A stretch of 64,000 nucleotides of DNA from Sulfurospirillum cavolei (GTDB lineage Bacteria; Campylobacterota; Campylobacteria; Campylobacterales; Sulfurospirillaceae): positions 1,860,001 to 1,924,000 of the forward strand of contig NZ_AP014724.1 of assembly GCF_001548055.1 (NCBI RefSeq), read 5' to 3'. The position numbers and the translations under genes are program-made. Position 1 is the first letter of the stretch, and the number at the start of each line of letters is the position of its first letter. Of this stretch, positions 37,204 through 49,967 are shown piece by piece. The notes below the pieces were generated by a model. The model had not been told where the DNA came from and searched no databases. It saw only the letters and a program-made list of their open reading frames with translations.

Positions 37204-38403
37204 TTAGAACTTATAGCTTGCGCTAAATCGAAACTCGTGTTTATCTAAAGCACCCGCTTTATCGCGATTTTCTTTGTCGTACATCACAAGAAGATTGAGC
37301 CCTTTGAGTGCGCCCTCAAAGGCGTAATTGCCCGTGAGTGAAACATAAGAAGCTTTACCGTACGAGAGGTCATCGTCATCGGTTACCGTGTAGCTTGTCG
37401 CAAGCGTCGTTGTCGGTGTAAACGCGTAGCTTAGACCGATCGCATACGCATCGGTGTTCGCAGGATAACTGCTGGAAAGTATGATCGTTCCCGTGTACGC
37501 AAGATCCGCGCCCCAACCGATTCCCGGAGTCACGGTTGCGTCTTTGCTCACGCTGCTATACGCGACATAACCGCCAAGGGCTCCGTATCCAAGGCTTGCT
37601 TTAAGACCGTAAAGATCGGCATTTTTGCTCCCCGTGACGTCTTTATCGCTGTAGTAGTATTGCGCCGCTAAGCCATAGGTAAAGGCGTTAACCATCGCAC
37701 TGTACGCCGCTTCTGCATACGCCATCGAACCATTGGTGTTCAGATCTTCCGCATACGCCGCGGTTAAGGTTAAGCCCGTAATTGATTTATTCACAGCAAC
37801 TAAAGTATACGCACCGTCTTCTAACAACGGAGAAACGCCATACGGATTGCTATAGGTGGTAAATTTACCGATATTGCCCGCCCCATCGGTTTGTGCTTGG
37901 AATTTTTGCACGTAGGCTGCGGTTAAAGTTGTGTTGGGAAGGTCGGTATTGACGATGCTTGCACCCTCAAATGCCTCTTTCACGATACGATTTCCTAAAG
38001 AGGCGATAAGTGGGGTATTGAGGAACATGCGTCCGACTTGAACAGTAGTTTTGCCTGCACTGTACGCTAAATACGCTTCGGAGAGTTGCGCACCCGAGCC
38101 GTACTCATCCCAACCAAACTGTGTTTTCGCATTGGAACTTGCAAACGGCGCACTGTTGGCTTGACCTGTTAAACCGAGGCTAAAGCCGTTGTAGGAGCCT
38201 GTCGTATACCCAAGAACAACGCCCGTGTTAAAAATTGATTCGCCCGAAATAGCAGGATTGCGGTCACGATCCCAGTAAAACGCTTTGAGTTCGCCGCTTA
38301 CTTTGCCTTCTTTAAAAGCATCTGCCAACGTATCGGCACTAAAAGCACAGGTGCTAAGTCCCGCTACACACAAGGCTGCTAAGCTAAGATTTGCCAATTT
38401 CAT
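37204..38403 (-). CDS. Outer-membrane porin (OprD/MOMP-like)
   Basis: The 399-residue beta-barrel protein has a Sec signal (MKLANLSLAALCVAGLSTCAFSA). The Campylobacterota porin start DTLADAFKEGKVSGELKAFYWDRD follows. Middle blocks (LSEAYLAYSAGKTTVQVGRMFLNTPL, FEGASIVNTDLPNTTLTAAYV) are shared with the porin at 60413-61777. It ends FRFSASYKF, with a C-terminal Phe. It would form a general or substrate-selective channel. A 22-bp motif palindrome lies between the ATG and the presumed promoter. Confidence 0.9.
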   Translation of the reverse strand: MKLANLSLAALCVAGLSTCAFSADTLADAFKEGKVSGELKAFYWDRDRNPAISGESIFNTGVVLGYTTGSYNGFSLGLTGQANSAPFASSNAKTQFGWDEYGSGAQLSEAYLAYSAGKTTVQVGRMFLNTPLIASLGNRIVKEAFEGASIVNTDLPNTTLTAAYVQKFQAQTDGAGNIGKFTTYSNPYGVSPLLEDGAYTLVAVNKSITGLTLTAAYAEDLNTNGSMAYAEAAYSAMVNAFTYGLAAQYYYSDKDVTGSKNADLYGLKASLGYGALGGYVAYSSVSKDATVTPGIGWGADLAYTGTIILSSSYPANTDAYAIGLSYAFTPTTTLATSYTVTDDDDLSYGKASYVSLTGNYAFEGALKGLNLLVMYDKENRDKAGALDKHEFRFSASYKF

Positions 38404-38423
38404 ATGTTTCTCCTTCGTAGTGA

Positions 38424-38445
38424 AATACTTTACATGTAAAGTATT
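38424..38445. repeat. 22-bp perfect palindrome in the porin 5' region
   Basis: Eleven-base arms (AATACTTTACA and complement) are centred on the dispersed motif (38432-38437), 21 bases upstream of the porin ATG. This could be an operator or a 5'-UTR hairpin. Confidence 0.55.
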
Positions 38446-38676
38446 GATGACGTTAATTTATACCAAAATGATGCGCCACTCTTTAAAAAGGAACGCCTCC
38501 AGACAGATGCATAAACCCATCTGCCTCATTCTTTAATAAGCCCGTTGTTTTCATAATTAATTTGAAGCTTCAAGAAAAATTTTAAATAAAAAAAAGAGCA
38601 AAAAAATCGAAGAGGAGGAGCATCGTTATGACGAAAAAACTAAGAAGAAATAAAAGAGAAGATAGGTGTCAAAAAA

Positions 38677-38697
38677 GAGGCGGCTTACGCCGCTCTC
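38677..38697 (-). terminator. Terminator overlapping the petC stop
   Basis: On the minus strand the stem (GCGGC/GCCGC with one bulged base and an extension) is followed by TTTTTT. The petC stop codon lies inside the stem-loop. Confidence 0.8.
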
Positions 38698-39539
38698 TTC
38701 CAAATCGAAACTTTCCACAGATACGCTATTAGGGTAAAAATAGCCATAAATCCAATGAGCTGCAAGCCAAGGCTCTCACGCTCCGCTTTCTTGCGATCGC
38801 CCACTTTTTCCAAGTAAGCGATCACTTGCTGTTGAGACGCTTCACTCAGTCCCACGCGAGGCATTGCAATGCCCTCGACCATTTTCAATGGTTCGTTGAT
38901 AAACGTGGTTAAATACTCCGCTTTTTTAGAGCGAATCATCATCGAAAGATCGGGTGCTTCGGCTCCCAAATAATTTTTCATCGATGCGCTTGGCGTTTGA
39001 GCTTTTAATGCATCGTATTTCATGCTGTGGCATCTGCCGCACGCTTCTTCAAACACCGCTTTATCACTGATCGGCGAAGAGCCGATGTTGTTCAAATACG
39101 CCACGACGTCGGCAATCTCTTGATCGCTGAAAAAGCCGTAACTTGGCATAGCATAGGGCTTTGCATCGTTGAATTTGTGCGAAAGCTTGGTTGCACGCAC
39201 GGGGTCTTTTAAAAATCCTGCTAGGTAATTTTTATCGTAAATCACGCCCGCATGACTGAGATCGGGTGGGACAACACCGTAGCTACTCGCCGCATCTTCA
39301 GGGCTCATCGGTGCTTCCAACCCTAGACTTTTAATACCGTGACACGCGATGCAATTTGCCTCGACGAGCAATTTGCCGTTGTCCGCATTGCCGTTGACAT
39401 GTAAAGGCGCCATCTCTTTAAAACCAAAATCGGCGGGGGCAACATGCGGGTGCATTTGCGAATGGGCATACGGTTCAACGCCCCAGTACGTCACGGCGGT
39501 AAAGAAGACCACAATGGCTAAAATCTTCACTTCTCTCAT
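38685..39539 (-). CDS. petC: Di-haem cytochrome c subunit of the bc1 complex
   Basis: The 284-residue subunit is anchored by an N-terminal helix (KILAIVVFFTAVTYWG) and a C-terminal one (LIGFMAIFTLIAYLW). It has two haem sites (CIACH at about 62 and CGRCH at about 166) and downstream Met candidates (MPSYGF, MPRVGL). It replaces the single-haem cytochrome c1 of other bacteria, as is usual in Campylobacterota. ATG 39539 overlaps the petB stop as ATGA and has GGAG upstream; a longer frame to 39632 would lie inside petB. Confidence 0.93.
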   Translation of the reverse strand: MREVKILAIVVFFTAVTYWGVEPYAHSQMHPHVAPADFGFKEMAPLHVNGNADNGKLLVEANCIACHGIKSLGLEAPMSPEDAASSYGVVPPDLSHAGVIYDKNYLAGFLKDPVRATKLSHKFNDAKPYAMPSYGFFSDQEIADVVAYLNNIGSSPISDKAVFEEACGRCHSMKYDALKAQTPSASMKNYLGAEAPDLSMMIRSKKAEYLTTFINEPLKMVEGIAMPRVGLSEASQQQVIAYLEKVGDRKKAERESLGLQLIGFMAIFTLIAYLWKVSIWKRAA

Positions 39540-40789
39540 GCCTTCTCTCCTTTTTTCGCTTCGTATTTCGTGATAATCGGCAGGACGATAAAAAGCCCTA
39601 AGAAAAGCACCGCGGCAAAAAAGCCGACCCATGCGTTCACGCCCGTCGGCGGCAATTTACCGTAAACGGTAAGGACGATCATATCGACGACCAGAAACCA
39701 AAACCACACGAAAAACGCGGGACGTTTATGTGCCGGAGCCGTATTCATCGCATTGCGATCCAAAAACGGCAGTAAAAAAAACACCGTATTGGCAAACACA
39801 AACGCGATCAAACCGATGTCCATCGCCGCCATGCCGCCGATGTCAAAGAAAAAGCCTCGAAGCACTTCGTAGTTCCACAAAAAATACCATTCCGGATAGA
39901 TGTGTGCCGGAGTCTTCATCGAATTGGCGGGTTCAAAGTTGATCGGATCCATCGCAAAATCGAAGTGATAACAGACCAAAAAGAAGAAAAACGTCATAAA
40001 AAAACCGACGACGAAAAAGTCTTTGGATAAAAACACGGGCCAAAACGGTACGACGTTAGACTCTTTAACGCGCCCTTCTTTGTATGTTTTCGCTTCCGCT
40101 TCAAAATCGAGCTCTACGGAATCTTGGTTGTTGACATGCGGAAAGCGAAGCGTGTAAAAATGCACCGCGATGACCGCTAAGATCACCAGCGGTAATAAAA
40201 CGACATGTAACATAAAAAAGCGTGTCAACGTCGCATCGGCAACAACGTAATCGCCGCGTATCCAAATGACCACCGCATCGCCGATCACGGGAATACCGCT
40301 GAAAAGATTGGTGATGACTTGCGCCGCCCAGTAGCTCATCTGTCCCCAAGGAAGCATATAGCCGCTAAACGCTTCGGCGGAAAACGCCACAAAAAGCACC
40401 ATACCCGTCAACCAAATCATCTCGCGCCCTTTTTTATACGAGCCGTAGTAAATACCCGTAAAAAGGTGAATGTAGATGATCAAAAACGTCGCCGACGCCG
40501 CAACGCCGTGCATATGTCGCCACAACCAACCGTACTCGACTTCTTGCATAATGGTATAGTTCACGCTATCAAACGCTAAAGCAACGTCCGGTTTATAATA
40601 CATCAGCAACAAAAGTCCCGTCACCAACAATACCGCAAACAAAGCGATCAAAACCACGCCCATCGCCCATAAAAAGTTGATATTTTTGGGAATCCAATAC
40701 TCACTCATCATCACGCGCATAAAGGCTTTCACCGCCAAACGCTGATCGAGCCAATCGATAAAGCCTTCGGCTTTTTTTATTTGTGCCAT
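39536..40789 (-). CDS. petB: Cytochrome b of the bc1 complex
   Basis: The 417-residue cytochrome b oxidises menaquinol and passes electrons across the membrane between two b haems. About nine hydrophobic helices are visible. Haem-ligand regions include WRHMHGVAASATFLIIYIHLF and RFFMLHVVLLPLVILAVIAVHFY, with FSGYMLPWGQMSYW and PEWYFLWNYEVLRG (the quinol-site Pro-Glu-Trp-Tyr motif). It is second of the Pet subunit genes, after petA. Confidence 0.95.
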   Translation of the reverse strand: MAQIKKAEGFIDWLDQRLAVKAFMRVMMSEYWIPKNINFLWAMGVVLIALFAVLLVTGLLLLMYYKPDVALAFDSVNYTIMQEVEYGWLWRHMHGVAASATFLIIYIHLFTGIYYGSYKKGREMIWLTGMVLFVAFSAEAFSGYMLPWGQMSYWAAQVITNLFSGIPVIGDAVVIWIRGDYVVADATLTRFFMLHVVLLPLVILAVIAVHFYTLRFPHVNNQDSVELDFEAEAKTYKEGRVKESNVVPFWPVFLSKDFFVVGFFMTFFFFLVCYHFDFAMDPINFEPANSMKTPAHIYPEWYFLWNYEVLRGFFFDIGGMAAMDIGLIAFVFANTVFFLLPFLDRNAMNTAPAHKRPAFFVWFWFLVVDMIVLTVYGKLPPTGVNAWVGFFAAVLFLGLFIVLPIITKYEAKKGEKA

Positions 40790-40798
40790 AACGCCTCC

Positions 40799-41299
40799 TT
40801 AGGCTTTTTTCGTCATTTTTTGATACTCCGCACCCTCTTCGCCCAAGACGATCGTTTCACCGTTTCGTTTAAAAGGAGGAATATCCAAAGGACGAGGCGG
40901 CGGGCCGAACGTTTGAATACCGCTCGCATCGAAAACGCCGCCGTGACACGCGCACTTAAACGTTTGAGAACTCGCCTCGTAAGAGGGAATGCACCCCAAA
41001 TGGGTACAAAGCCCGATCAACACGACAAATCGCTTTTCGCCGATACGAATATCGCGTTTGTCGTTGCTTGGCGTCTCCGCGCTTTTATGCAAAATAAAAA
41101 CGGGTTTACCGCGCCATTGAACCGTGTGCATTTCGCCCTCTTTCATACCGGAAAGATCGACGCTGACAAAACCCGCCGACTGAACGCTCGGAAGCGGATC
41201 CCAACTCTTTTTCATCGCGCCCAAGGCAAGCACTCCGCCTACGGCACTGATACCGCCTAGAGCCCAGCCTATAAAATCGCGCCTACTGTGTTGTGCCAT
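40799..41299 (-). CDS. petA: Rieske iron-sulfur protein of the bc1 complex
   Basis: The 166-residue subunit has an N-terminal twin-arginine-type anchor ([24 protein letters not shown]). The [2Fe-2S] ligands lie in [10 protein letters not shown] and CACHGGVFD, and the GPPPRPL loop follows. It transfers electrons from quinol to the di-haem cytochrome c. It lies 7 bases after the small cytochrome c gene and 9 bases before petB. Confidence 0.95.
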
Positions 41300-41306
41300 C
41301 GATAGA

Positions 41307-41606
41307 CTACTTTTTCGTGATAAAAGAGGCTAACTCTTCGATTTGCGCATCGCTGAGGCTGGCAACTTGCGGTTTCATCATCGCTTTTTGTTCTCTGCCG
41401 TAACTGCCGTCTTTATACCCTTTGAGGGCTTTAACAAAATCCTCTTTGCTCATCTCTTTGATCACGAGGCTTTTATTTAACGCGGCTTTCTCGCCTTGCG
41501 CTCCGTGGCAGGCGATACACTTGGAATATAAAGGATTGGCCGATGCGCTTAAAGCAAGGCTACACCATACCAACGCAACGCTACATGTAAGGGTTGAAAG
41601 TTTCAT
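41307..41606 (-). CDS. Small class I cytochrome c (c553-like)
   Basis: The 99-residue periplasmic protein has a signal peptide ([23 protein letters not shown]). One haem site follows ([11 protein letters not shown]), with a distal Met candidate ([20 protein letters not shown]). It is the first gene of the petABC cluster and is a likely soluble electron acceptor of the bc1 complex, carrying electrons to terminal oxidases or periplasmic reductases. AAGGAG precedes the ATG. Confidence 0.9.
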
Positions 41607-41701
41607 CTACGACTCCTTGAAATTAATTTCCCGCATCGTAGTAAAAAAAAATAGCAAAAAAATGAGATCAAGCCCAAAAAGAAGAGGTAATCTTAATTTT
41701 T

Positions 41702-41877: not shown

Positions 41878-43545
41878 CTAACTTTCCCGTTTGAGCTTAA
41901 TCGTAAAAAGCGCGCCGTCTTGAGTATTGCTGACGTTAATGATGCCGTTCATATTATTTTCGATAATCATCTTGGTCATATAAAGCCCGATTCCAGTACC
42001 CTGTTTGGCGTGTTTGGTCGTAAAATAAGGCTCGAAAATACGCTCGATATGCTCCGCCGCGATGCCGCCGCCGTTGTCTTCGATTTTGATCAGCGTGTAG
42101 CGTTTGCCGTTTTTAACGCTCATCGCGATGTACGGTGCTTCGATTTGACGTTCGATCAAAACGTCTTTGGCATTGGACAAAACGTTTAAGATCGCCTGCG
42201 CAAACTCGTTGGGATAGCCTAAGACCTGCGCACCCTCGCTTTTTTCCAAACGAAACTCGATGGAGTGGTATTTGAGCGATGCTTGCAAAATCGAACTGGC
42301 GCGTTCGCACGCATGGGTCACGTCGAAAATCTCTTTGGCTTTGGAGGGCTTGAAGAAGTTTTGAAAGTCGCTGATGGTATTGGACATGTACTCGGTGATG
42401 CGGTTACACTCTTCGATTTTGGCGTTTAAAAACTCTTCGGTAAAATCTTCAAAATGGCGTCTGACTTGAATAATCATCAAAAGCGCGTTAATTTCGCCCA
42501 AAGGTTGACGCCACTGGTGCGCGATATTGCCGATCATATTGCCCATGGCGGCAAGTTTGCTTTGCTGGATTAAAAGCTGTTCTTGACGCGTGCGCTCATC
42601 GATCTCTTGCTGAATGCGAAATTCCAAATTATCGAGCATTTCATTCATCACGGCTTTTAAAAGGTTGAGCTGATCGGAGTTGGCGCGCGCCACCAAGCGT
42701 CGATCCAAGTTGCCGAGTTTCAAATCTTCCACTACGTTGGTCGCATCTTCGATCAGTTTGCTGTCTTGCTCCAAATTGGCTTGGATAATTTCGATATTTT
42801 TATTGATACGCCGCGCCATATCGCCTAACTCGTCTTTATTATTCAACGGGATATGAATCCTTGTCGCCTCTTCGGTCGAGGGCGACTTGAGATAATCGAA
42901 AAATTCGCGCAGTCCTTTGCTGACATGTAAGGTAGAATCGACGATATTTTTGGCGATATACGAACCGATCAGCAAGGTAAGCACGATAATAACGATCAGC
43001 CATACGACGATAAAATAACGCGAATTATTTGCCTCTTTGTTGGCTTTGGTAAAGGTATCCGAAGCATGGGAAAGCTCGTTTTGCTGCATTTCATCTAGTG
43101 AATCCATCAGCGCGTAAAATTGGTCGCGTTCAACCGTATTGGCGTTAATAAACGCGCCCTCTTCAAAATCGTCTTTGAGGTAAGACTGGTTCGCCCTAAT
43201 CAACGTTACGTAATTTTGCCACTGATCGTAAACGTTTTTCGGCAAACGTTGGAAAGGTTCGTCCATCTTTTGATACATCGCATTGATCGTCCGTAAAATA
43301 TCTTTACGCAAATCTTCGTTGGGTGCCATAATTAAAGAGAGCGACTGTTCTCTGAGCTTAAAAAGCGGCAAAATATAGGTCTGTTGGATCGTCTGCACGC
43401 GCTTGGAGCCTTCAAAAACGTTGTTGACGTTCACGACCCCTTTTTGCGTAATGTCAAACGCCAAAAAAGAGAGCGTCACGATAGAACAAACGCCCAGCGA
43501 CGCCATCAACAAAAATTTAAGCCGAATGGAGAGGTATTTAATCAT
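41878..43545 (-). CDS. Transmembrane sensor histidine kinase
   Basis: The product is 555 residues. TM1 is at about 9-29, with a helical periplasmic domain at about 35-180. TM2 (YFIVVWLIVIIVLTLLIGSYIA) is followed by HAMP and a coiled coil. The H-box is GNIAHQWRQPLGEIN (His at about 340). ATP-binding boxes are NVLSNAKDVL, IEDNGGGIAAEHIERIFEPYFTT and GTGIGLYMTKMIIENN. The gene overlaps the binding-protein gene by 8 bases, which itself overlaps the response-regulator gene. The three probably form one signalling system for the DmsAB-like genes upstream. Confidence 0.92.
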   Translation of the reverse strand: MIKYLSIRLKFLLMASLGVCSIVTLSFLAFDITQKGVVNVNNVFEGSKRVQTIQQTYILPLFKLREQSLSLIMAPNEDLRKDILRTINAMYQKMDEPFQRLPKNVYDQWQNYVTLIRANQSYLKDDFEEGAFINANTVERDQFYALMDSLDEMQQNELSHASDTFTKANKEANNSRYFIVVWLIVIIVLTLLIGSYIAKNIVDSTLHVSKGLREFFDYLKSPSTEEATRIHIPLNNKDELGDMARRINKNIEIIQANLEQDSKLIEDATNVVEDLKLGNLDRRLVARANSDQLNLLKAVMNEMLDNLEFRIQQEIDERTRQEQLLIQQSKLAAMGNMIGNIAHQWRQPLGEINALLMIIQVRRHFEDFTEEFLNAKIEECNRITEYMSNTISDFQNFFKPSKAKEIFDVTHACERASSILQASLKYHSIEFRLEKSEGAQVLGYPNEFAQAILNVLSNAKDVLIERQIEAPYIAMSVKNGKRYTLIKIEDNGGGIAAEHIERIFEPYFTTKHAKQGTGIGLYMTKMIIENNMNGIINVSNTQDGALFTIKLKRES

Positions 43546-45205
43546 AGCTAAACCTTAAAGGAATCAACGGAGCTTCGCGCTCTTTAGGATATGCCGACGT
43601 AGCGATCGAGCGATGGTATTTCGTAATTTTTGCTTTCCACAGCGGCATCAGCAACACCGAAGAAGGCTCGTAAGAGACCTCTTTGTTGACCGCCAAAACG
43701 ATATTGGGTGCGGGAACGGCTAACATGTAAGCTTTTTCATAGGCACGATGGACGATTTTAGAGACGATTTCGTAAAAACTTTCGCTTTGAAACTCTGCGT
43801 CGAAAAACTGCTCGATATACGTTTGCATCACGTCGTCTTTGTCCATTGCCGACCATTTATCGGCAACACGGTACGCAAAAAATGCCGTCCACGGATTGTT
43901 ACTACTCCAATCGTCATTTCCCCATGTCAAAATATCCCATGTTTTAGGCGATTCGCGATTGGTTAAGAGCTGCTCGTAAATGACTTTTTCGTTCGGCGTA
44001 ATCGTATATTCTAAACTCACACCGTAGCGTTTGAGCTGATGCTCGATCCCGTGCCATAAAAACATAAACCGATCCATCGTAATGACGTTAAGGTGCAATC
44101 CCTCAAGCGTTTGTTTGAGTGCTTTTTCCTCGTCGGCGGTATTTCTTGCACGTTGTCCCCACGTCGGCAAATCCGTGATAGCGCGTTTGATCGAACGGTA
44201 ATTGGGACTGGCTTCGCTCGGGGCTAACACACCTTCGTTTTTGTAAACAAAATTTAAAAGGTTTTCCTGATTGATCGCTTTATTGAGTGCAATGCGGATC
44301 TTTTGATCTTGCAAACGACTCTTGGGTTTTAGCAGGTTAAAATAGATCGAGATATTGTGAAGCGAGGGTTTGGTAACCAATCGCGCGTACTTGGAAAGCA
44401 CGGTTTCGACTTTTTTATTAAACGGGATCGGCGTAATATCGAGCGTTCCCTCTTCCAATGCCATTCGTACGGCTTCTTGGGAAGTCAGCTCCGTGTAGAC
44501 CGTGATTTTTTCGATGTAAGGAAGCCCTTTTTCGTAGTAATTTTCATTGGCGACCAACTCCAACGTCGGCGTTTGATACCGTCCCGTCGCATACCCTTTT
44601 TCCAATCGGTAAGGTCCCAATCCCCACGGGCCTGGAGCTTGCATACTGTTACATGTAGAACCCTCTTTGGTGCTCCAACCGTAACGCTTCAAGTACTCGC
44701 TCGGATACAGATTGATCGACGTTAAGTCGCTGAACAATAATCCGTAAGGCTTGTTCAAGTGAATGCGAATCGTGTAGGCATCGACTTTTTCGACGCTTTG
44801 AAGCCTTTTATGAATGTCCGAATAAACGACGGGGTCTTGCATAAAATAGCGAAAATTTTCCACCACCGAATCGGCGTTAAAGGGTGTACCGTTTTGGAAC
44901 AAGACGCCGCGTCTGAGCGTTAATTCGTAAGTCAAATCGTCGATCTTGCGATGGGACGTCGCCATCATGTATTCCCAGCCGTTTTCGTTATCGCTGGAAC
45001 GCACGAGCGTCCCGTTAATCAATTTGGAAACATACAGATACGGCATCGTCGGGAAAAAAACGCTGATATGCGATCCTTCGAGCCTTTCATTTAGAAGCGT
45101 GGTATTAAAGTCGTCTTGGCGCGCATGAAAAGGTTCTTTCCAACCCTCGGCATGCGCGATCAGCGCGATCAAAATTCCCCAATACAAAAGTCTAGCACAT
45201 TTCAA
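43538..45205 (-). CDS. Periplasmic binding protein, peptide/nickel (SBP_bac_5) family, inside a two-component operon
   Basis: The 555-residue secreted protein (signal LLYWGILIALIAHAEG) has the family-5 signatures YELTLRRGVLFQNGTPFNADSVVENFRY and IRIALNKAINQENLLNFVYKN. Such proteins usually feed ABC importers of peptides or nickel, but no permease or ATPase gene is near. It sits between a response regulator (overlap 14 bases) and a histidine kinase (overlap 8 bases), so a sensory role presenting ligand to the kinase is inferred. The start is probably TTG with AGGA upstream. Ligand unknown. Confidence 0.87.
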   Translation of the reverse strand: MKCARLLYWGILIALIAHAEGWKEPFHARQDDFNTTLLNERLEGSHISVFFPTMPYLYVSKLINGTLVRSSDNENGWEYMMATSHRKIDDLTYELTLRRGVLFQNGTPFNADSVVENFRYFMQDPVVYSDIHKRLQSVEKVDAYTIRIHLNKPYGLLFSDLTSINLYPSEYLKRYGWSTKEGSTCNSMQAPGPWGLGPYRLEKGYATGRYQTPTLELVANENYYEKGLPYIEKITVYTELTSQEAVRMALEEGTLDITPIPFNKKVETVLSKYARLVTKPSLHNISIYFNLLKPKSRLQDQKIRIALNKAINQENLLNFVYKNEGVLAPSEASPNYRSIKRAITDLPTWGQRARNTADEEKALKQTLEGLHLNVITMDRFMFLWHGIEHQLKRYGVSLEYTITPNEKVIYEQLLTNRESPKTWDILTWGNDDWSSNNPWTAFFAYRVADKWSAMDKDDVMQTYIEQFFDAEFQSESFYEIVSKIVHRAYEKAYMLAVPAPNIVLAVNKEVSYEPSSVLLMPLWKAKITKYHRSIATSAYPKEREAPLIPLRFSYD

Positions 45206-45884
45206 ATCGGTATCCTACGCCCGAGAGGTTCGTGATGAAATCCTTGGGCAGTTTTTTGCGTAAATTTCGCACCAAAGAACGAAGCGCGCTATCGGTCATC
45301 ACGTCGTCTTGCCAGATATGCGACTGGAGCTCGTCGTACGTGACGATGCGTTGTTTATTGTGCAATAAAAGTTCTAAAAAAAGAGCCTCTTTTTTGTTGA
45401 GATGAATCATCTCGCCTTCAAACCGAAGTTCTTTATGATCGACGTCGTAAAAGTAACCGCACGGCAATTCGTAGACGATCGCATGGTTTTTGCTAATGCG
45501 TTTTAAACATCGCTGCAACGCTTCGAGCAATCCTTTGAGATTGACGGGTTTGACGATGTACTGCTCCAAATGAAGGTCGACGACTTTTAGCAAATACTCC
45601 TTATCCGTATGCGCCGAAATAATCACCAAAGGCGTCGTTTCGTCTTCGGCACGAATCTTCTCGACCAGCTCAATTCCGTTCATGACGGGCATCAGTACGT
45701 CGGTTATCACGATATCGGGGCGTTCTTTTCGGTACAACTCCAAAGCGACTTTCCCGTTTTCCGCCTCCAACACCTCTTTGGCGTAATAGCGAAGCGATGC
45801 GGCGATATTTTTGCGTATGCCGTCTTCGTCTTCGGCATACAAAATTCTGAGGGCTTTCAAATGCTCTAAAAAAAGCTTATCCAC
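45192..45884 (-). CDS. OmpR-type response regulator
   Basis: The 230-residue regulator has a receiver domain (about 8-120; ILYAEDEDGIRKN, IVITDVLMPVMNG with the phosphoacceptor Asp, VIISAHTD, YIVKPV). A winged-helix Trans_reg_C domain follows (about 140-228; LNKKEALFLELLLHNKQRIVTYDELQSHIW, SLVRNLRKKLP, GVGYRF). I chose a GTG at 45884 because AAGGAG sits 10 bases upstream. The frame continues to a TTG at 45974, which would overlap the preceding gene. It probably regulates the adjacent molybdoenzyme genes in response to the binding protein and kinase. Confidence 0.9.
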   Translation of the reverse strand: MDKLFLEHLKALRILYAEDEDGIRKNIAASLRYYAKEVLEAENGKVALELYRKERPDIVITDVLMPVMNGIELVEKIRAEDETTPLVIISAHTDKEYLLKVVDLHLEQYIVKPVNLKGLLEALQRCLKRISKNHAIVYELPCGYFYDVDHKELRFEGEMIHLNKKEALFLELLLHNKQRIVTYDELQSHIWQDDVMTDSALRSLVRNLRKKLPKDFITNLSGVGYRFEMC

Positions 45885-45970: not shown

Positions 45971-46339
45971 TCAACTGCTTTTATAAATCAAATTGACGCG
46001 TATGCCGATAACGTGCCGTCCTTCGCTTAAAGGACGAATGCTCGTTTTCGGATACCAGCCTTGCATAACCGGCAAAGAAGAAGGCGATTCGAGCGTATCG
46101 ACCAGAACATTGACAAAGTAGCCTGAGGGCAGATCGGGCTTTTCCAGTTTTATTATAACGAAGTTTTCCTCTCCGACGCGGTATTGAGCAGGCTCTTCGA
46201 TTTCAACGTGCTGATGCGACAATTCGCCAAACTGCGGATCGCCGAAACTACACACGCTCGGGGCTCCCATACTGCCCCAAGCGCAACCGAGTAAAGCCCA
46301 GAGCATACACCATGCGATTTTGAGCTTTAGCGGTAACAT
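45971..46339 (-). CDS. Small secreted protein, candidate lipoprotein
   Basis: The 122-residue protein has an N-terminal signal (LKIAWCMLWALLGCAWG) whose LLGC could be a lipobox. The rest is a compact, mostly beta-type domain (YRVGEENFVIIKLEKPDLPSGYFVNVLVDTLE...GRHVIGIRVNLIYKSS) that I do not recognise. It lies 3 bases after the DmsB-like gene, so a role in the same periplasmic redox system, or in signalling to the downstream binding protein, is suggested by position only. Confidence 0.7.
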   Translation of the reverse strand: MLPLKLKIAWCMLWALLGCAWGSMGAPSVCSFGDPQFGELSHQHVEIEEPAQYRVGEENFVIIKLEKPDLPSGYFVNVLVDTLESPSSLPVMQGWYPKTSIRPLSEGRHVIGIRVNLIYKSS

Positions 46340-46342
46340 CGT

Positions 46343-46978
46343 TTATCCTTTAGGTTGTCGGTAGATCTCTTTAGGCATAAAGGGATGGATAAAGCGTGTC
46401 GAAGGTTTCGTCTCCGCATCGATCGCATAGTCGATACCGATAGGGTCGCTTCGAAGCTCTTTGTATTTGGGGTCGTGGAGATCGATGATCGTGATCGCAT
46501 GAACCGGACACGATTGGACGCACGCGGTCGTTTTGCCCTCTTCTTGTCGCTCCCAACACATACTGCACTTCTCGGCACGCCCCATTTTCGTATTGAACTT
46601 CGATGCCCCGAACGGACACGCTTTCACGCAACCGCCGCAACCGATACAGATACTTTGGTCGTGTTTACAAATACCCGTTTCCGGATCTTTCGTATGCGCC
46701 CCGACCGGACAAATGGCGACACAAGCGGGGTTTTCGCAGTGGTTACACGCCAAGGAGAAGTAAAATCGCTCCATCGGCATCGACACTTTCGGTGCTTTTT
46801 GGTACGAGGTCAGCGTCGGTAAAATATTGTTATTGTCGATCAGATAATCTTCCGCACCGATCTCACGGACTTTTCGCCACGTAACGCCTTGGTCTTGATG
46901 GTATTGGTTTTTACACGCCATAGCACAGGTATTGCATCCAAGACAGATGCTTCCGTCGACTAAAAATGCTTTTTGCAT
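46343..46978 (-). CDS. DmsB-like four-cluster ferredoxin subunit
   Basis: The 211-residue electron-transfer subunit has four [4Fe-4S] motifs: CLGCNTCAMACKNQ, CNHCENPACVAICP, CIGCGGCVKACP, and CSMCWERQEEGKTTACVQSCP. Spacing and order match DmsB/PsrB/PhsB subunits, which pass electrons to the molybdenum subunit. No DmsC/NrfD-type membrane anchor is encoded nearby. It follows the catalytic gene by 12 bases. Confidence 0.92.
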   Translation of the reverse strand: MQKAFLVDGSICLGCNTCAMACKNQYHQDQGVTWRKVREIGAEDYLIDNNNILPTLTSYQKAPKVSMPMERFYFSLACNHCENPACVAICPVGAHTKDPETGICKHDQSICIGCGGCVKACPFGASKFNTKMGRAEKCSMCWERQEEGKTTACVQSCPVHAITIIDLHDPKYKELRSDPIGIDYAIDAETKPSTRFIHPFMPKEIYRQPKG

Positions 46979-46990
46979 CGTCCTCTCCTC

Positions 46991-49267
46991 TTATAGTTTT
47001 TTGAAATTAACAAACGTATCGTGTAACGCAACACCCGGTGCACCCGTTTTAAACGCACCCATGTCTGAACTGGTATCATCGACGAGTTCATTCACGTTGT
47101 AAATTTTGTTGTGGTAGTACTGCTCGTACATCAAAAGCGTTCCTTTTTGAACGTTATCGGTCACTTTCGCACGCACGCGTAAAACACCTTGGCGGTTGAA
47201 AACGGCAACCATATCGTCCGTGTCGACCATCTTTTCTTCCGCATCATCAGGGTTGATATACACATACGGCTCCGGATGAAAATCCTCCATCCATTCCAAA
47301 TTTTGGAACTGAGAGTGCAAGCTCCACCTGCTGTGAGGTGAGGTCATACGGAAACGATCGTAGGGCTTACGAACTTCAAGATACGCCGGCAATGCGCTAC
47401 CGAAAAGCTCCAACGCTTTATCCGAATAAAACTCAAATTTACCGCTAGGGGTTTTAAACTTACCGTCGGCATAGGGAATAACCGCTTTGGCTTTAACAGG
47501 ACCCTTTTTAAGCTCTTCCCATGATTGGATACCGAATTGCTCGTAAATTGCCGGATTGAACTCTTTGATCGTCATCTCTTTACTGTCCACGCTTTGCGGG
47601 AACGTACACGAACCTTTGGAGAGTTGATTCATACGTTTGGAAAGCATCGCCGCGATTTCAAGATCAGACTTAATCTCAAAAAGCGGTTTAATCGCTTGCT
47701 CGTTGATGCTCAACCAATAATGCCAGTAAGAGACGTTAACGTCGTACTCTTCAAATTGAGTGGTTACGGGAAGTACGATGTCCGCCCATTTAGCGGTTTC
47801 ATTAAAGAATTGATCGGCAACGACCACAAGATCGAGCTGTTGAAACGCGCGAATCAACTGGTTACGATCAAAATCTTGCGCGAAAACGTTTTTACATGCG
47901 ACCCAAAGAAGTCTTACTTTTGGCTCTTTGGCACTCATCAGTTCACGCGCGGTTTTATTGATGTTTAAAAAGCGATCGGTATACGCCGCTTTTTCGCCGC
48001 CCACTTGAGCAAACTCGCCTTTGGCACCTTCAGGTCCCGTGTATCCGACACTGCCTTCGGGTTTGACTTGGCTGAGTGCCGCGTAGTTAAAACCCCACGT
48101 GTTAAGGTGTCCATAGCGTGCACCGCCCGCGTATTTGCCGATATTGCCGCTTACTGCCACCAACGCATCGATCGCACGGATCATGGAACCGCCGTTGGTG
48201 TGGCGTTGCATACCGTACCCCATCCAAACGGTCGCAGGTTTTGCTTTGGCAAACGATAAAGCCAACTCTTTAATCATCGCTAAAGGAATACCCGTCACTT
48301 TGGAGACGTCGTCTAATTTTACCTCTTTATCAAGATACGCTTTGTACTCTTTATACCCTTTGGAATGAGCGTCCAACCATTTTTGATCGTGCAATTTTGC
48401 ATCGATGATGATTTTTGCCATTCCCAAAGCCAATAAGCCGTCCGTTCCCGTTTTGATCTGAAGGTATTGGCTTGCTTTAGATGCCGTTTCCGTAAAAATC
48501 GGATCGATCACGACGACCTTCGCCCCTTTGCTTTTGGCTTCATATATGTACTTCATGGAGTGTACGGAGTTTGCGGCAGGATTGACACCCCAAAGAATGA
48601 TAAATTTGCTGTCTTTCATCTCTTCAGGATCGTTACACCACATATCGCCCATGTCGAGGTTTTGCGCATCGATACCCGCAGGCCAGCACGGCGTTCCCGC
48701 AAGGCGCGTCGTATAGCCGATGGAGTTAAACATACCCTCGATACCGTAATGCGTAATGCCGAAATTACCGGAATATTTGGTCAATGCCGCACCCAGTAAG
48801 GTACCGTCTTCTTTTTTCATGTCCAAAAGTTTTTTAGCAATGATGTCGATGGCTTGATCCCACGAAATACGTTTCCACGTTCCGCTTCCCTTGCCGCCGA
48901 CTTGCATCATCGGATACTTAAGACGTCGTGCCGAATAGACGCGCTTGACGTACGAGTTACCTTTAACGCAACATCCGCCTCGGGTATACGTCGATTCTTG
49001 CGCGCCTTCGATAAACTGCATCACGCCGTCTTTGACGTAGGTTTTGATGCTACAGGTATCGTAGCAGTTTCTTGGACACGCATTACGGAAAGTTTGATAA
49101 CTTTTTTCGCCCGAATAGGGGATTTTCGTATTCAAATCTTCGTTTGCCTCCAAAACGCCTCCGGGCAATGCGGATAAAACACCGCTTGCGGCAAGCCCTT
49201 TGAGAAAGCTCCTTCTGCTGATCGTGTTGTTGAGTATCTCCTCAACCTTTGCTTTGGAATAACTCAT
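46991..49267 (-). CDS. DMSO-reductase-family molybdopterin catalytic subunit
   Basis: The product is 758 residues. A Tat signal (SRRSFLKGLAASGVLSALPGG, about 18-38) exports it folded. The [4Fe-4S] motif is CPRNCYDTC...GGCCVKG (about 63-100). Bis-MGD blocks YSARRLKYPMMQVGGKGSG and KFIILWGVNPAANSVHSM resemble DmsA/PhsA types. In the metal-ligand region, where DmsA has Ser, the sequence reads GTPCWPAGID, so Cys is a candidate ligand; this needs alignment. The substrate is uncertain (S-oxide, N-oxide, thiosulfate, polysulfide or other). ATG 49267 has AAGGAG upstream and overlaps the TorD-like stop. Confidence 0.9.
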   Translation of the reverse strand: MSYSKAKVEEILNNTISRRSFLKGLAASGVLSALPGGVLEANEDLNTKIPYSGEKSYQTFRNACPRNCYDTCSIKTYVKDGVMQFIEGAQESTYTRGGCCVKGNSYVKRVYSARRLKYPMMQVGGKGSGTWKRISWDQAIDIIAKKLLDMKKEDGTLLGAALTKYSGNFGITHYGIEGMFNSIGYTTRLAGTPCWPAGIDAQNLDMGDMWCNDPEEMKDSKFIILWGVNPAANSVHSMKYIYEAKSKGAKVVVIDPIFTETASKASQYLQIKTGTDGLLALGMAKIIIDAKLHDQKWLDAHSKGYKEYKAYLDKEVKLDDVSKVTGIPLAMIKELALSFAKAKPATVWMGYGMQRHTNGGSMIRAIDALVAVSGNIGKYAGGARYGHLNTWGFNYAALSQVKPEGSVGYTGPEGAKGEFAQVGGEKAAYTDRFLNINKTARELMSAKEPKVRLLWVACKNVFAQDFDRNQLIRAFQQLDLVVVADQFFNETAKWADIVLPVTTQFEEYDVNVSYWHYWLSINEQAIKPLFEIKSDLEIAAMLSKRMNQLSKGSCTFPQSVDSKEMTIKEFNPAIYEQFGIQSWEELKKGPVKAKAVIPYADGKFKTPSGKFEFYSDKALELFGSALPAYLEVRKPYDRFRMTSPHSRWSLHSQFQNLEWMEDFHPEPYVYINPDDAEEKMVDTDDMVAVFNRQGVLRVRAKVTDNVQKGTLLMYEQYYHNKIYNVNELVDDTSSDMGAFKTGAPGVALHDTFVNFKKL

Positions 49268-49824
49268 TCGTGACTCCTTGTTGTCGTTGTTTCTCTTATC
49301 AAGAATGATTTGAGCTCGTTTAAAATAAAGTGAATCGCATTGTCGCCTTCGCTTCGTCCATGCATCGCGCGTTCGATCAATTGCGGCATCCAAACCGCGA
49401 TATGCTCGTGAAAAAAGTAGTAACGAAGTTCGCTTAAGTAAGCGACGTTTTTGACCTCTTCTAAATAAATCAATTGGTAATACGCATCCAGCTCCACGCC
49501 GATATGATCTTCGGGAACGATGTTTTTTAAGGGATAAAAAAAGCCCATCGTTTCGTAAAGCGATCTTACATGTAAGGTGCTTTGCGTCATCACGCTTTGA
49601 GGATCGTCGATATAGACCGAGGCAAAAGGATCGGCAATCGGTTCCATGGGACCCACGAAATAACGATTGAATAAAATTTCCAGTTCGTCCTCGTCGATCG
49701 AATGCTCGAGCGAAAACGCATCGTAAGCCTCTTTAAGCGTTTGAGAATTGTGCGCGTTGAAAAAATCGCGTAAACGTTTGAGCGTCGCCAAACGCTCTGA
49801 TCGAGAAAGAAGATCATTTTGCAT
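49264..49824 (-). CDS. TorD-family molybdoenzyme chaperone
   Basis: The 186-residue all-helical protein is a TorD/DmsD type chaperone. Such proteins bind the Tat signal of a molybdoenzyme until cofactor insertion is complete. Supporting signs are VGPMEPIADPFASVYIDDP, SLYETMGFFYPLKNIVPEDHIGVELDAYYQLI and FFHEHIAVWMPQLIERA. It overlaps the catalytic gene by 4 bases and is first in the operon, so it most likely serves that enzyme. A dispersed motif at 49568-49573 encodes Leu-His-Val. Confidence 0.88.
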   Translation of the reverse strand: MQNDLLSRSERLATLKRLRDFFNAHNSQTLKEAYDAFSLEHSIDEDELEILFNRYFVGPMEPIADPFASVYIDDPQSVMTQSTLHVRSLYETMGFFYPLKNIVPEDHIGVELDAYYQLIYLEEVKNVAYLSELRYYFFHEHIAVWMPQLIERAMHGRSEGDNAIHFILNELKSFLIRETTTTRSHE

Positions 49825-49967
49825 TTTAAACTCTTTATGTAATCTGTTTTATTTAGAAACGTACAAGAATGGTAAATGAAAAAAAGAGCAAAAAAATCGC
49901 AAAACAAGCAGAAAACGACGTAAAAAGTTAAATGTAGGGAAACGTTACATGTGAAGAAAAGTAGAGG

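Follow-up and report, generated by a model that had tools for sequence, protein, structure and literature searches.

A DppA-type periplasmic binding protein encoded between an OmpR-type regulator and a sensor kinase: a probable three-component sensor beside a molybdenum reductase operon

Open reading frames and Pfam matches in the window (the whole 64-kb stretch of DNA that was analysed, from an anaerobically respiring host) placed the genes of a response regulator (RR), a solute-binding protein (SBP) and a sensor histidine kinase (HK) on the minus strand, overlapping end to end:

45192..45884, minus strand: OmpR-type response regulator, GTG start (Response_reg 92.7 bits, Trans_reg_C 56.2 bits)
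43538..45205, minus strand: SBP_bac_5 periplasmic binding protein, TTG start (PF00496 136.8 bits; curated cut-off 32.4 bits)
41878..43545, minus strand: sensor histidine kinase (Pfam HATPase_c 62.8 bits)

The overlaps were as originally predicted, 14 bases for RR and SBP (45192-45205) and 8 bases for SBP and HK (43538-43545). The GTG start of the regulator was assigned from an AAGGAG-like site and from agreement with the starts of its paralogues, the mechanical ORF beginning at 45974; the protein is 46-50% identical to its paralogues of two other trios. The N-terminus of the SBP was judged by eye to be of Sec type, and its AlphaFold model (pLDDT 92.3) resembled solved family-5 binding proteins (Foldseek E 1e-31 to 5u4o, plus many family-5 chains).

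The trio lies downstream of torD-dmsA-dmsB, where a DmsAB/TorD-like operon had been placed earlier:

49264..49824, minus strand: chaperone of TorD/DmsD type, whose gene opens the operon (PF02613 75 bits)
46991..49393, minus strand: molybdopterin oxidoreductase of the DMSO reductase family, Tat-exported (Pfam Molybdopterin 174 bits, with TAT_signal)
46343..46978, minus strand: DmsB-like 4Fe-4S electron-transfer subunit (TIGR02951 143 bits, cut-off of 214 not reached)
45971..46339, minus strand: 122-aa protein, N-terminus signal-like; its gene separates dmsB from that of the regulator

The oxidoreductase probably starts inside its ORF and reached the cut-off of none of the NCBIfam models listed; the TorA proteins of the host's two paralogous trio loci (L005 and L006) exceeded that of bisC_fam (TIGR00509). 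The 122-aa protein gave no family match in Pfam or NCBIfam and adjoins dmsB in relatives too.

The kinase consists of a first transmembrane segment, a periplasmic four-helix sensor (approximately residues 31-175), a second transmembrane segment, a HAMP-like linker and the HATPase domain, with transmembrane and linker limits set by eye; HATPase families were its only Pfam matches. The sensor was modelled as all-helical (pLDDT 91.9; helices 7-73, 77-99, 103-124, 128-136 and 138-199), as in Tor systems. Foldseek searches with this model returned NarQ, Vc1313 and Tar among the top matches, all weak (E >= 0.046). One motif falls at the modelled tip:

43120..43167, minus strand: sensor tip motif, kinase residues 127-142, beginning FEEGAFIN, between helices 3 and 4

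The order RR-SBP-HK was found twice more in the host genome, and at least 52 SBP matches were found in 33 of the 397 genomes of the class. S. diekertiae JPD-1 is among the Sulfurospirillum strains with a trio (L010 and L031). The count of 52 is a lower bound with up to three candidates scored per genome; an additional fourth SBP was seen in L121 (G146, near 842 kb). The same helical sensor kinase lies directly downstream of the SBP in 50 of the 52 matches, and the other two are first copies in tandem SBP pairs. A DmsA- or TorA-type reductase was located, in varied gene orders, near 50 of 52 SBP ORFs checked, a set that excludes the window trio. The two genes shared a strand in 47 of these 50 cases, with the reductase upstream or downstream, and lay on opposite strands in three. 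No reductase match was obtained within about 9 kb on either side of the L158 trio. A chance neighbourhood was ruled out by this recurrence in dozens of relatives with varied gene orders. Distance correlations were 0.945 for SBP and HK, 0.857 for SBP and RR and 0.586 for SBP and reductase; the last value reflects poor tree agreement, on which the idea that one trio serves one enzyme type only was rejected, as it was on the locus L153, which has an Arcobacter-like SBP (genus name by analogy with named relatives) next to DmsA. A literature search of titles and abstracts outside subscription journals returned none describing an SBP_bac_5 kinase trio.

Outside the Campylobacterota trios, a signalling gene follows the SBP gene in 22 of 25 loci, and 16 such genes were assigned by Pfam to MCPs or hybrid kinases. 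Most of these partners bear a related four-helix sensor, whereas those of Enterovibrio type carry dCache instead. The window kinase sensor did not match Pfam 4HB_MCP_1 (PF12729) at E 0.001, whereas SBP-linked partners in other phyla did; profile comparison of 4HB-type sensors from other phyla with the trio kinases gave an hhalign probability of 100 (E 8.4e-41).

Three direct repeats with 11-bp spacing were identified as candidate regulator boxes, and two further features belong with them:

49879..49899, minus strand: candidate box 1, an 11-bp direct repeat preceding torD-dmsAB-X-RR-SBP-HK, conserved in relatives
38589..38609, minus strand: candidate box 2, identical to box 1, about 186 bases upstream of the porin gene
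41645..41665, minus strand: candidate box 3, weaker, with three mismatches, upstream of the small cytochrome c/bc1-type cluster
37204..38403, minus strand: porin-like outer membrane protein (named by eye), with box 2, predicted regulon member
38685..41606, minus strand: small cytochrome c, Rieske protein, cytochrome b and c-type cytochrome (bc1-like, named by eye), with box 3

A porin orthologue with a box was found in L118, L120, L122 and L124, and all 8 aligned loci retain the 11-bp T-tract repeat of box 3; the bc1-like cluster is a possible regulon member. Periodic A/T-rich promoters are usual in Campylobacter (PMC3656092), and the repeats might be sigma-70 promoter periodicity of a generic kind, with no role as regulator boxes; this reading, which concerns the DNA boxes alone, is considered somewhat unlikely. 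Against it, the sequence of boxes 1 and 2 has just two matches in the 2.7-Mb genome with up to two mismatches allowed, and each paralogous trio has its own box variant. T6 tracts 11 bp apart occur at four places in the window, three of which are the candidate boxes, at none in L006, L007 and L210, and at four in L005, two being the boxes of the L005 trio itself. Generic T-rich promoters as the sole source of the repeats were provisionally set aside on the genome-wide rarity and this T6-T6 control.

The arrangement is comparable to TorT-TorS-TorR of Escherichia coli TMAO respiration in its periplasmic binding protein, helical-sensor kinase and OmpR-type regulator, and in the adjacent S/N-oxide reductase and TorD chaperone, with a TorC-like cytochrome in two paralogous loci. 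It differs in the binding protein, for which, as originally proposed, a family other than that of TorT was found: SBP_bac_5 was the sole Pfam match at E 0.001, with no TorT-type protein, and TorT is not known to be a member of SBP_bac_5. TorS is a tripartite hybrid kinase with receiver and HPt, whereas the window kinase is orthodox. The TorS sensor is described in PMC8534201 as two stacked bundles; that of the window kinase has one. Three-gene regulatory clusters beside a molybdenum enzyme are also formed by AioX-AioS-AioR, ArxXSR and ArrXSR for arsenic oxyanions, whose binding protein detects the ligand, as is proposed here for the SBP. AioX is PhnD-related, whereas the trio combines SBP_bac_5 with an OmpR-type regulator and gave no PhnD-like Pfam match. 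In E. coli, chemoreceptors are paired with binding proteins as DppA-Tap and NikA-Tar, which likewise comprise a family-5 SBP acting via a four-helix periplasmic sensor; DppA and NikA also serve importers, whereas the trio SBP appears dedicated and, in Campylobacterota, kinase-linked. Adjoining SBP and sensor kinase genes are known, too, for Pseudomonas AgtS and AruS, with partners from another family, SBP_bac_8, and an interaction was reported as not observed for AruS in PMC11113362.

The three-component sensor originally proposed is supported by the SBP-kinase linkage and by the importer searches described below, which address the two observations named at the outset as able to refute it. The trio is probably a dedicated TorT/AioX-like sensor that uses a DppA-type binding protein and controls the reductase operon, the porin and perhaps the bc1 cluster. 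Computation shows the families and fold of the proteins, the order and co-occurrence of their genes, the homology of the sensors, the loss of the motif and the repeats in the DNA; the identity of the ligand, the docking, the phosphotransfer, and the binding of DNA and direction of control are inferred, as follows. The SBP would be secreted to the periplasm and close on its ligand; an S- or N-oxide reduced by the neighbouring molybdenum enzyme, or a related small molecule, is the likeliest candidate. It would then dock at the membrane-distal tip of the four-helix sensor, at the site of the motifs FEEGAF(I)N and LRxxSLSLVMAPN, and the kinase would next phosphorylate the OmpR-type regulator. The regulator would bind the 11-bp direct repeats and activate the torD-dmsA-dmsB operon, the trio included, together with the porin for substrate entry and perhaps the bc1-type cluster for electron supply.

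The ligand could instead be a peptide, an amine or a metal chelate, the reductase answering an indirect cue, and this variant of the three-component sensor is held to be somewhat unlikely. According to their structure titles, solved family-5 SBPs have peptides, glutathione, nickel chelates, sugars or HEHEAA as ligands; these are unlike small oxides and count against oxide sensing, and in other bacteria this SBP family works with chemoreceptors. Sensing of an oxide is favoured over an indirect cue by the link to several subfamilies of S/N-oxide type reductases and by the precedent of AioX/ArrX, whose ligand is the substrate of the enzyme.

That the kinase itself senses the ligand or redox state, the SBP merely buffering or modulating, is judged improbable. 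Five related kinases lack an SBP, and four of them form RR-HK pairs persisting beside TorA (L194-L197). These pairs are presumably functional, and the kinase family is thus not always SBP-dependent; co-occurrence of the trio in other genomes held for the SBP, tied to its kinase sensor, and was not absolute for the kinase, which also occurs without the SBP. All 50 SBP-linked kinases checked carry the FEEGAF motif, and none of the five SBP-less relatives does; the latter are altered at this site, two with an insertion ahead of the motif, as if adapted to a different input. Three weak sensor matches (E 5.8e-9 to 9.1e-7) were set aside, L199 and L200 after inspection at the ORF level, and G275, and the independence of the SBP losses was judged from sequence and genus. 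The tip motif is likely to be where the SBP docks or signals.

Solved members of the SBP family are mostly importer subunits, and a single DppB-like permease (PF19300) is present in the genome, alone within a nusA/fabI/tpi/pgk housekeeping neighbourhood; the SBP is nevertheless very unlikely to be the ordinary capture subunit of a distant ABC importer lying by chance in a two-component operon, since oligo_HPY (PF08352; Opp/Dpp/Nik ATPase) had zero matches and OppC_N (PF12911) none above cut-off genome-wide, SBP linkage in trio loci and other phyla is to transducers and not transporters, and a fourth host SBP (L007), with the highest family score (267.6 bits), is the better importer candidate. 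A complete Opp/Dpp/Nik importer was not found in the genome, and the predicted lack of a nearby ABC permease was borne out, with zero BPD_transp_1 matches in the window and 16 genome-wide, the nearest more than 30 kb from the trio.

With the dedicated sensor as the preferred reading for the window, there is about an even chance that SBP_bac_5 and this particular four-helix sensor tip form a portable external-receptor cassette, attached to orthodox kinases beside S/N-oxide reductases in Campylobacterota and to hybrid kinases or chemoreceptors in Thiotrichaceae and others. Such a cassette would direct gene expression in some bacteria and, in others, movement towards an electron acceptor, and loss of the SBP would be followed by decay of the tip motif, marking the docking site.

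If true, the sensor would represent a further, separately evolved arrangement, after TorT and AioX/ArrX, in which a loose binding protein senses an electron acceptor used in respiration, and would give members of the peptide/nickel importer family a dedicated signalling role. The natural SBP-loss events point to a candidate docking site, and a compact regulon of sensor, reductase, porin and bc1 cluster is predicted for bacteria about whose control of S/N-oxide respiration little is known.

The window trio lies in a one-contig genome of 2,698,323 bases, of which the window covers positions 1860001-1924000. The original prediction placed a family-5 binding protein (SBP) between regulator and kinase genes, and this layout was borne out, with overlaps of 14 bases (regulator/SBP) and 8 bases (SBP/kinase). 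The regulator was of OmpR type; the kinase was orthodox with a helical periplasmic part, and no receiver domain was found in it. The features are as follows.

Features of the window.
38589-38609, candidate box 2, before the porin gene
41645-41665, candidate box 3, before the bc1-like cluster
41878-43545, minus strand, histidine kinase
43538-45205, minus strand, SBP
45192-45884, minus strand, OmpR-type regulator
45971-46339, minus strand, 122-aa ORF, secreted-looking
49879-49899, candidate box 1, before torD

The 122-aa ORF was conserved between dmsB and the regulator gene in DmsA-type loci and gave no match in Pfam and NCBIfam searches. The closest named relatives in the genome collection were Sulfurospirillum, and the genome was accordingly assigned to that genus; the window SBP and the SBP of Sulfurospirillum sp. 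UBA4058 shared 96% identity. Profile search of the whole genome gave four PF00496 matches, three of them in regulator-SBP-kinase trios (the window, L005 and L006); the fourth SBP stood alone and had the top family score of the four (267.6 bits). Identities of the paralogous trios to the window were 46-49% for SBPs, 50% for kinases and 46-50% for regulators. Both flanked TorA-type reductases with a TorC-like cytochrome, each reductase scoring above the cut-off of TIGR00509 (S/N-oxide reductase subfamily model). The porin adjoining the L005 trio (L005:5000-6363) seemed interrupted, with a late ORF start and an in-frame stop upstream, and an 11-bp T-tract repeat was seen beside it at L005:4993.

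Service to a distant ABC importer, named beforehand as the case against a sensory role, was not borne out: whole-genome profile searches gave no oligo_HPY match and no OppC_N match over cut-off, and the single DppB-like permease (G000:C1:2240818-2241759; L210:6304-7278) was isolated in a cluster of nusA, fabI, tpi and pgk. The SBP model (pLDDT 92.3) matched solved family-5 proteins; among the 50 matches listed, the best target-length TM-scores (0.83-0.84) were to AapF of Pseudomonas, whose structure was solved with a signalling molecule.

Recurrence was analysed in 397 genomes of the class using an SBP profile built from 39 sequences (E <= 1e-60). This gave 52 matches in 33 genomes, every one above 690 bits, while a sensor-domain profile gave 60 rows in 40 genomes. 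By coordinates, a sensor lay directly downstream of 50/52 SBPs, with 2-28 bases between match ends; the other two were first copies in regulator-SBP-SBP-kinase loci (L138:8076-11259, L139:8108-11367), where the tandem SBPs perhaps bring two ligands to one kinase. In the fetched neighbourhoods (L005, L006 and L117-L163; 52 SBP ORFs, window left out), a regulator was directly upstream of 50, the remaining two being second tandem copies, and a kinase was directly downstream of 49 by script, plus L141, where the kinase ORF merely starts further upstream. For 50/52 the fetched stretch contained a DmsA- or TorA-like reductase; the exceptions were L158 and L136, in which the SBP ORF is preceded by 320 bases of contig. 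The reductase shared a strand with the SBP in 47/50, lying on either side of it, and was on the opposite strand in three. Distance correlations (51 sequences, 47 with a reductase) were highest for the SBP and kinase trees (0.945) and, among SBP pairs, lowest for SBP and reductase (0.586). By these trees the trio moves as a unit and has become attached to several reductase types. Pairs of a dCache kinase and a regulator adjoined other TorA paralogues of the same genomes (L010:13638-15680, L017:7776-9788, L015:2931-4952), which suggests that two types of sensor serve the TorA copies; similar ORFs were present in L117, L123, L125 and L127.

Independent occurrence of the members was found on one side only: tandem first copies apart, none of the 52 SBPs lacked a kinase, but five strong sensor matches in class genomes lacked an SBP. 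Four were regulator-kinase pairs beside TorA and cytochrome genes (G330, G255, G207 and a second locus of G061), and one was a lone kinase (G260). A related kinase at L198:7821-9509 had neither SBP, regulator nor reductase match nearby. The motif F[EDQ]E[GA][AS][FY] was present in 49/49 kinases paired with an SBP by script, in L141 and in the window kinase, and in 0/5 SBP-less kinases, two of which carried a 13-residue insertion just before the motif site. In the sensor model (pLDDT 91.9) helices 3 (103-124) and 4 (138-199) flanked this motif, and the turn joining helices 1 and 2 contained the LIMAPN motif; to judge by the lengths of the helices, the two motifs would sit at the tip farthest from the membrane. 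Action of the SBP at this tip is the simplest reading.

Beyond the class the SBP family recurred with other outputs. A scan of the 84,980-genome collection led to 79 loci, of which 47 (L008-L054) contained the family; past those, identity fell to 31% or less. Twenty-five of the 47 were other than Campylobacterota trio loci, including L050, labelled Campylobacterales yet with a hybrid kinase; several were from MAGs and may carry mistaken taxon labels. A same-strand gene followed within 170 bases in 22/25 (L054 with a 191-aa fragment on a frame-broken contig); L021 and L033 had none, and L053 ends inside the SBP. Sixteen followers were analysed with Pfam.

Followers of SBPs in non-trio loci (Pfam).
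Four-helix chemoreceptor: L025, L027, L034, L035, L037
dCache chemoreceptor: L026, L029, L038, L041, L044
Four-helix hybrid kinase: L024, L042, L048, L049, L050, L052

Partner four-helix sensors aligned with trio-kinase sensors over 281 columns (probability 100, E 8.4e-41), sharing the motifs LR.LSL.xV.APN and EAAFIN/EGAFIN.

Candidate regulator boxes were sought upstream. A block like TGCGATTTTTTTGCTCTTTTTTT was kept before the operon in relatives amid poorly conserved DNA. With up to two mismatches it occurred at two places in the whole genome, before torD and before the porin, and with up to three at three sites in the window (0.02 expected), the third preceding a small cytochrome c and the bc1-like cluster, where 8/8 aligned loci retained it as an 11-bp T-tract repeat. 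The second site preceded the same porin in L118, L120, L122 and L124; what followed it in L240-L242 was a 399-aa ORF that shares the porin's N-terminus. Across the genus, the block (up to one mismatch) was present in 14/24 genomes and its reversed control in 0/24; it occurred in 10/11 genomes with a DmsA-type trio, the window's included (exception G350), and in 0/4 without one (G123, G228, G239, G264), the remaining nine being outside the class SBP search. TorA trios carried their own repeats, each variant partly conserved in relatives: one had two genomic copies, the first ahead of the regulator (not kept in L146, L147 and L149) and the second ahead of the cytochrome, and another had a single copy, before torA. 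Part of the repeat signal may be promoter structure, since periodic A/T-rich stretches are described for Campylobacter promoters in sections of PMC3656092; against pure promoter structure, T6 tracts spaced 11 bp are rare here, with four places in 64 kb, three of which are these sites. A palindrome close to TTTACATGTAAA, perhaps another regulator's site, was seen upstream of several respiratory genes at about 38420-38440 and 49945-49955, and in many aligned upstream regions.

SBP-activated receptors are a known kind, as receptor activation is reported for SBPs of at least 13 families (PMC9602780, in part). No description of the trio was found in the literature searched, including portions of PMC6682613 (Campylobacterota respiration regulation), PMC2147049 (Arcobacter butzleri genome) and PMC7755780 (Sulfurospirillum regulation). 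In logic it resembles TorT-TorS-TorR and the AioX/ArrX systems; the binding proteins of AioX/ArrX systems, according to excerpts of PMC5908839, bind the substrate of the cognate molybdenum enzyme. The trio belongs to neither, because its binding protein is from another family and its kinase is not a tripartite hybrid. Most likely, ligand-loaded SBP would act on the kinase tip, the kinase would signal to the OmpR-type regulator, and the regulator would act at the 11-bp candidate boxes, the output being reductase, porin and electron supply.
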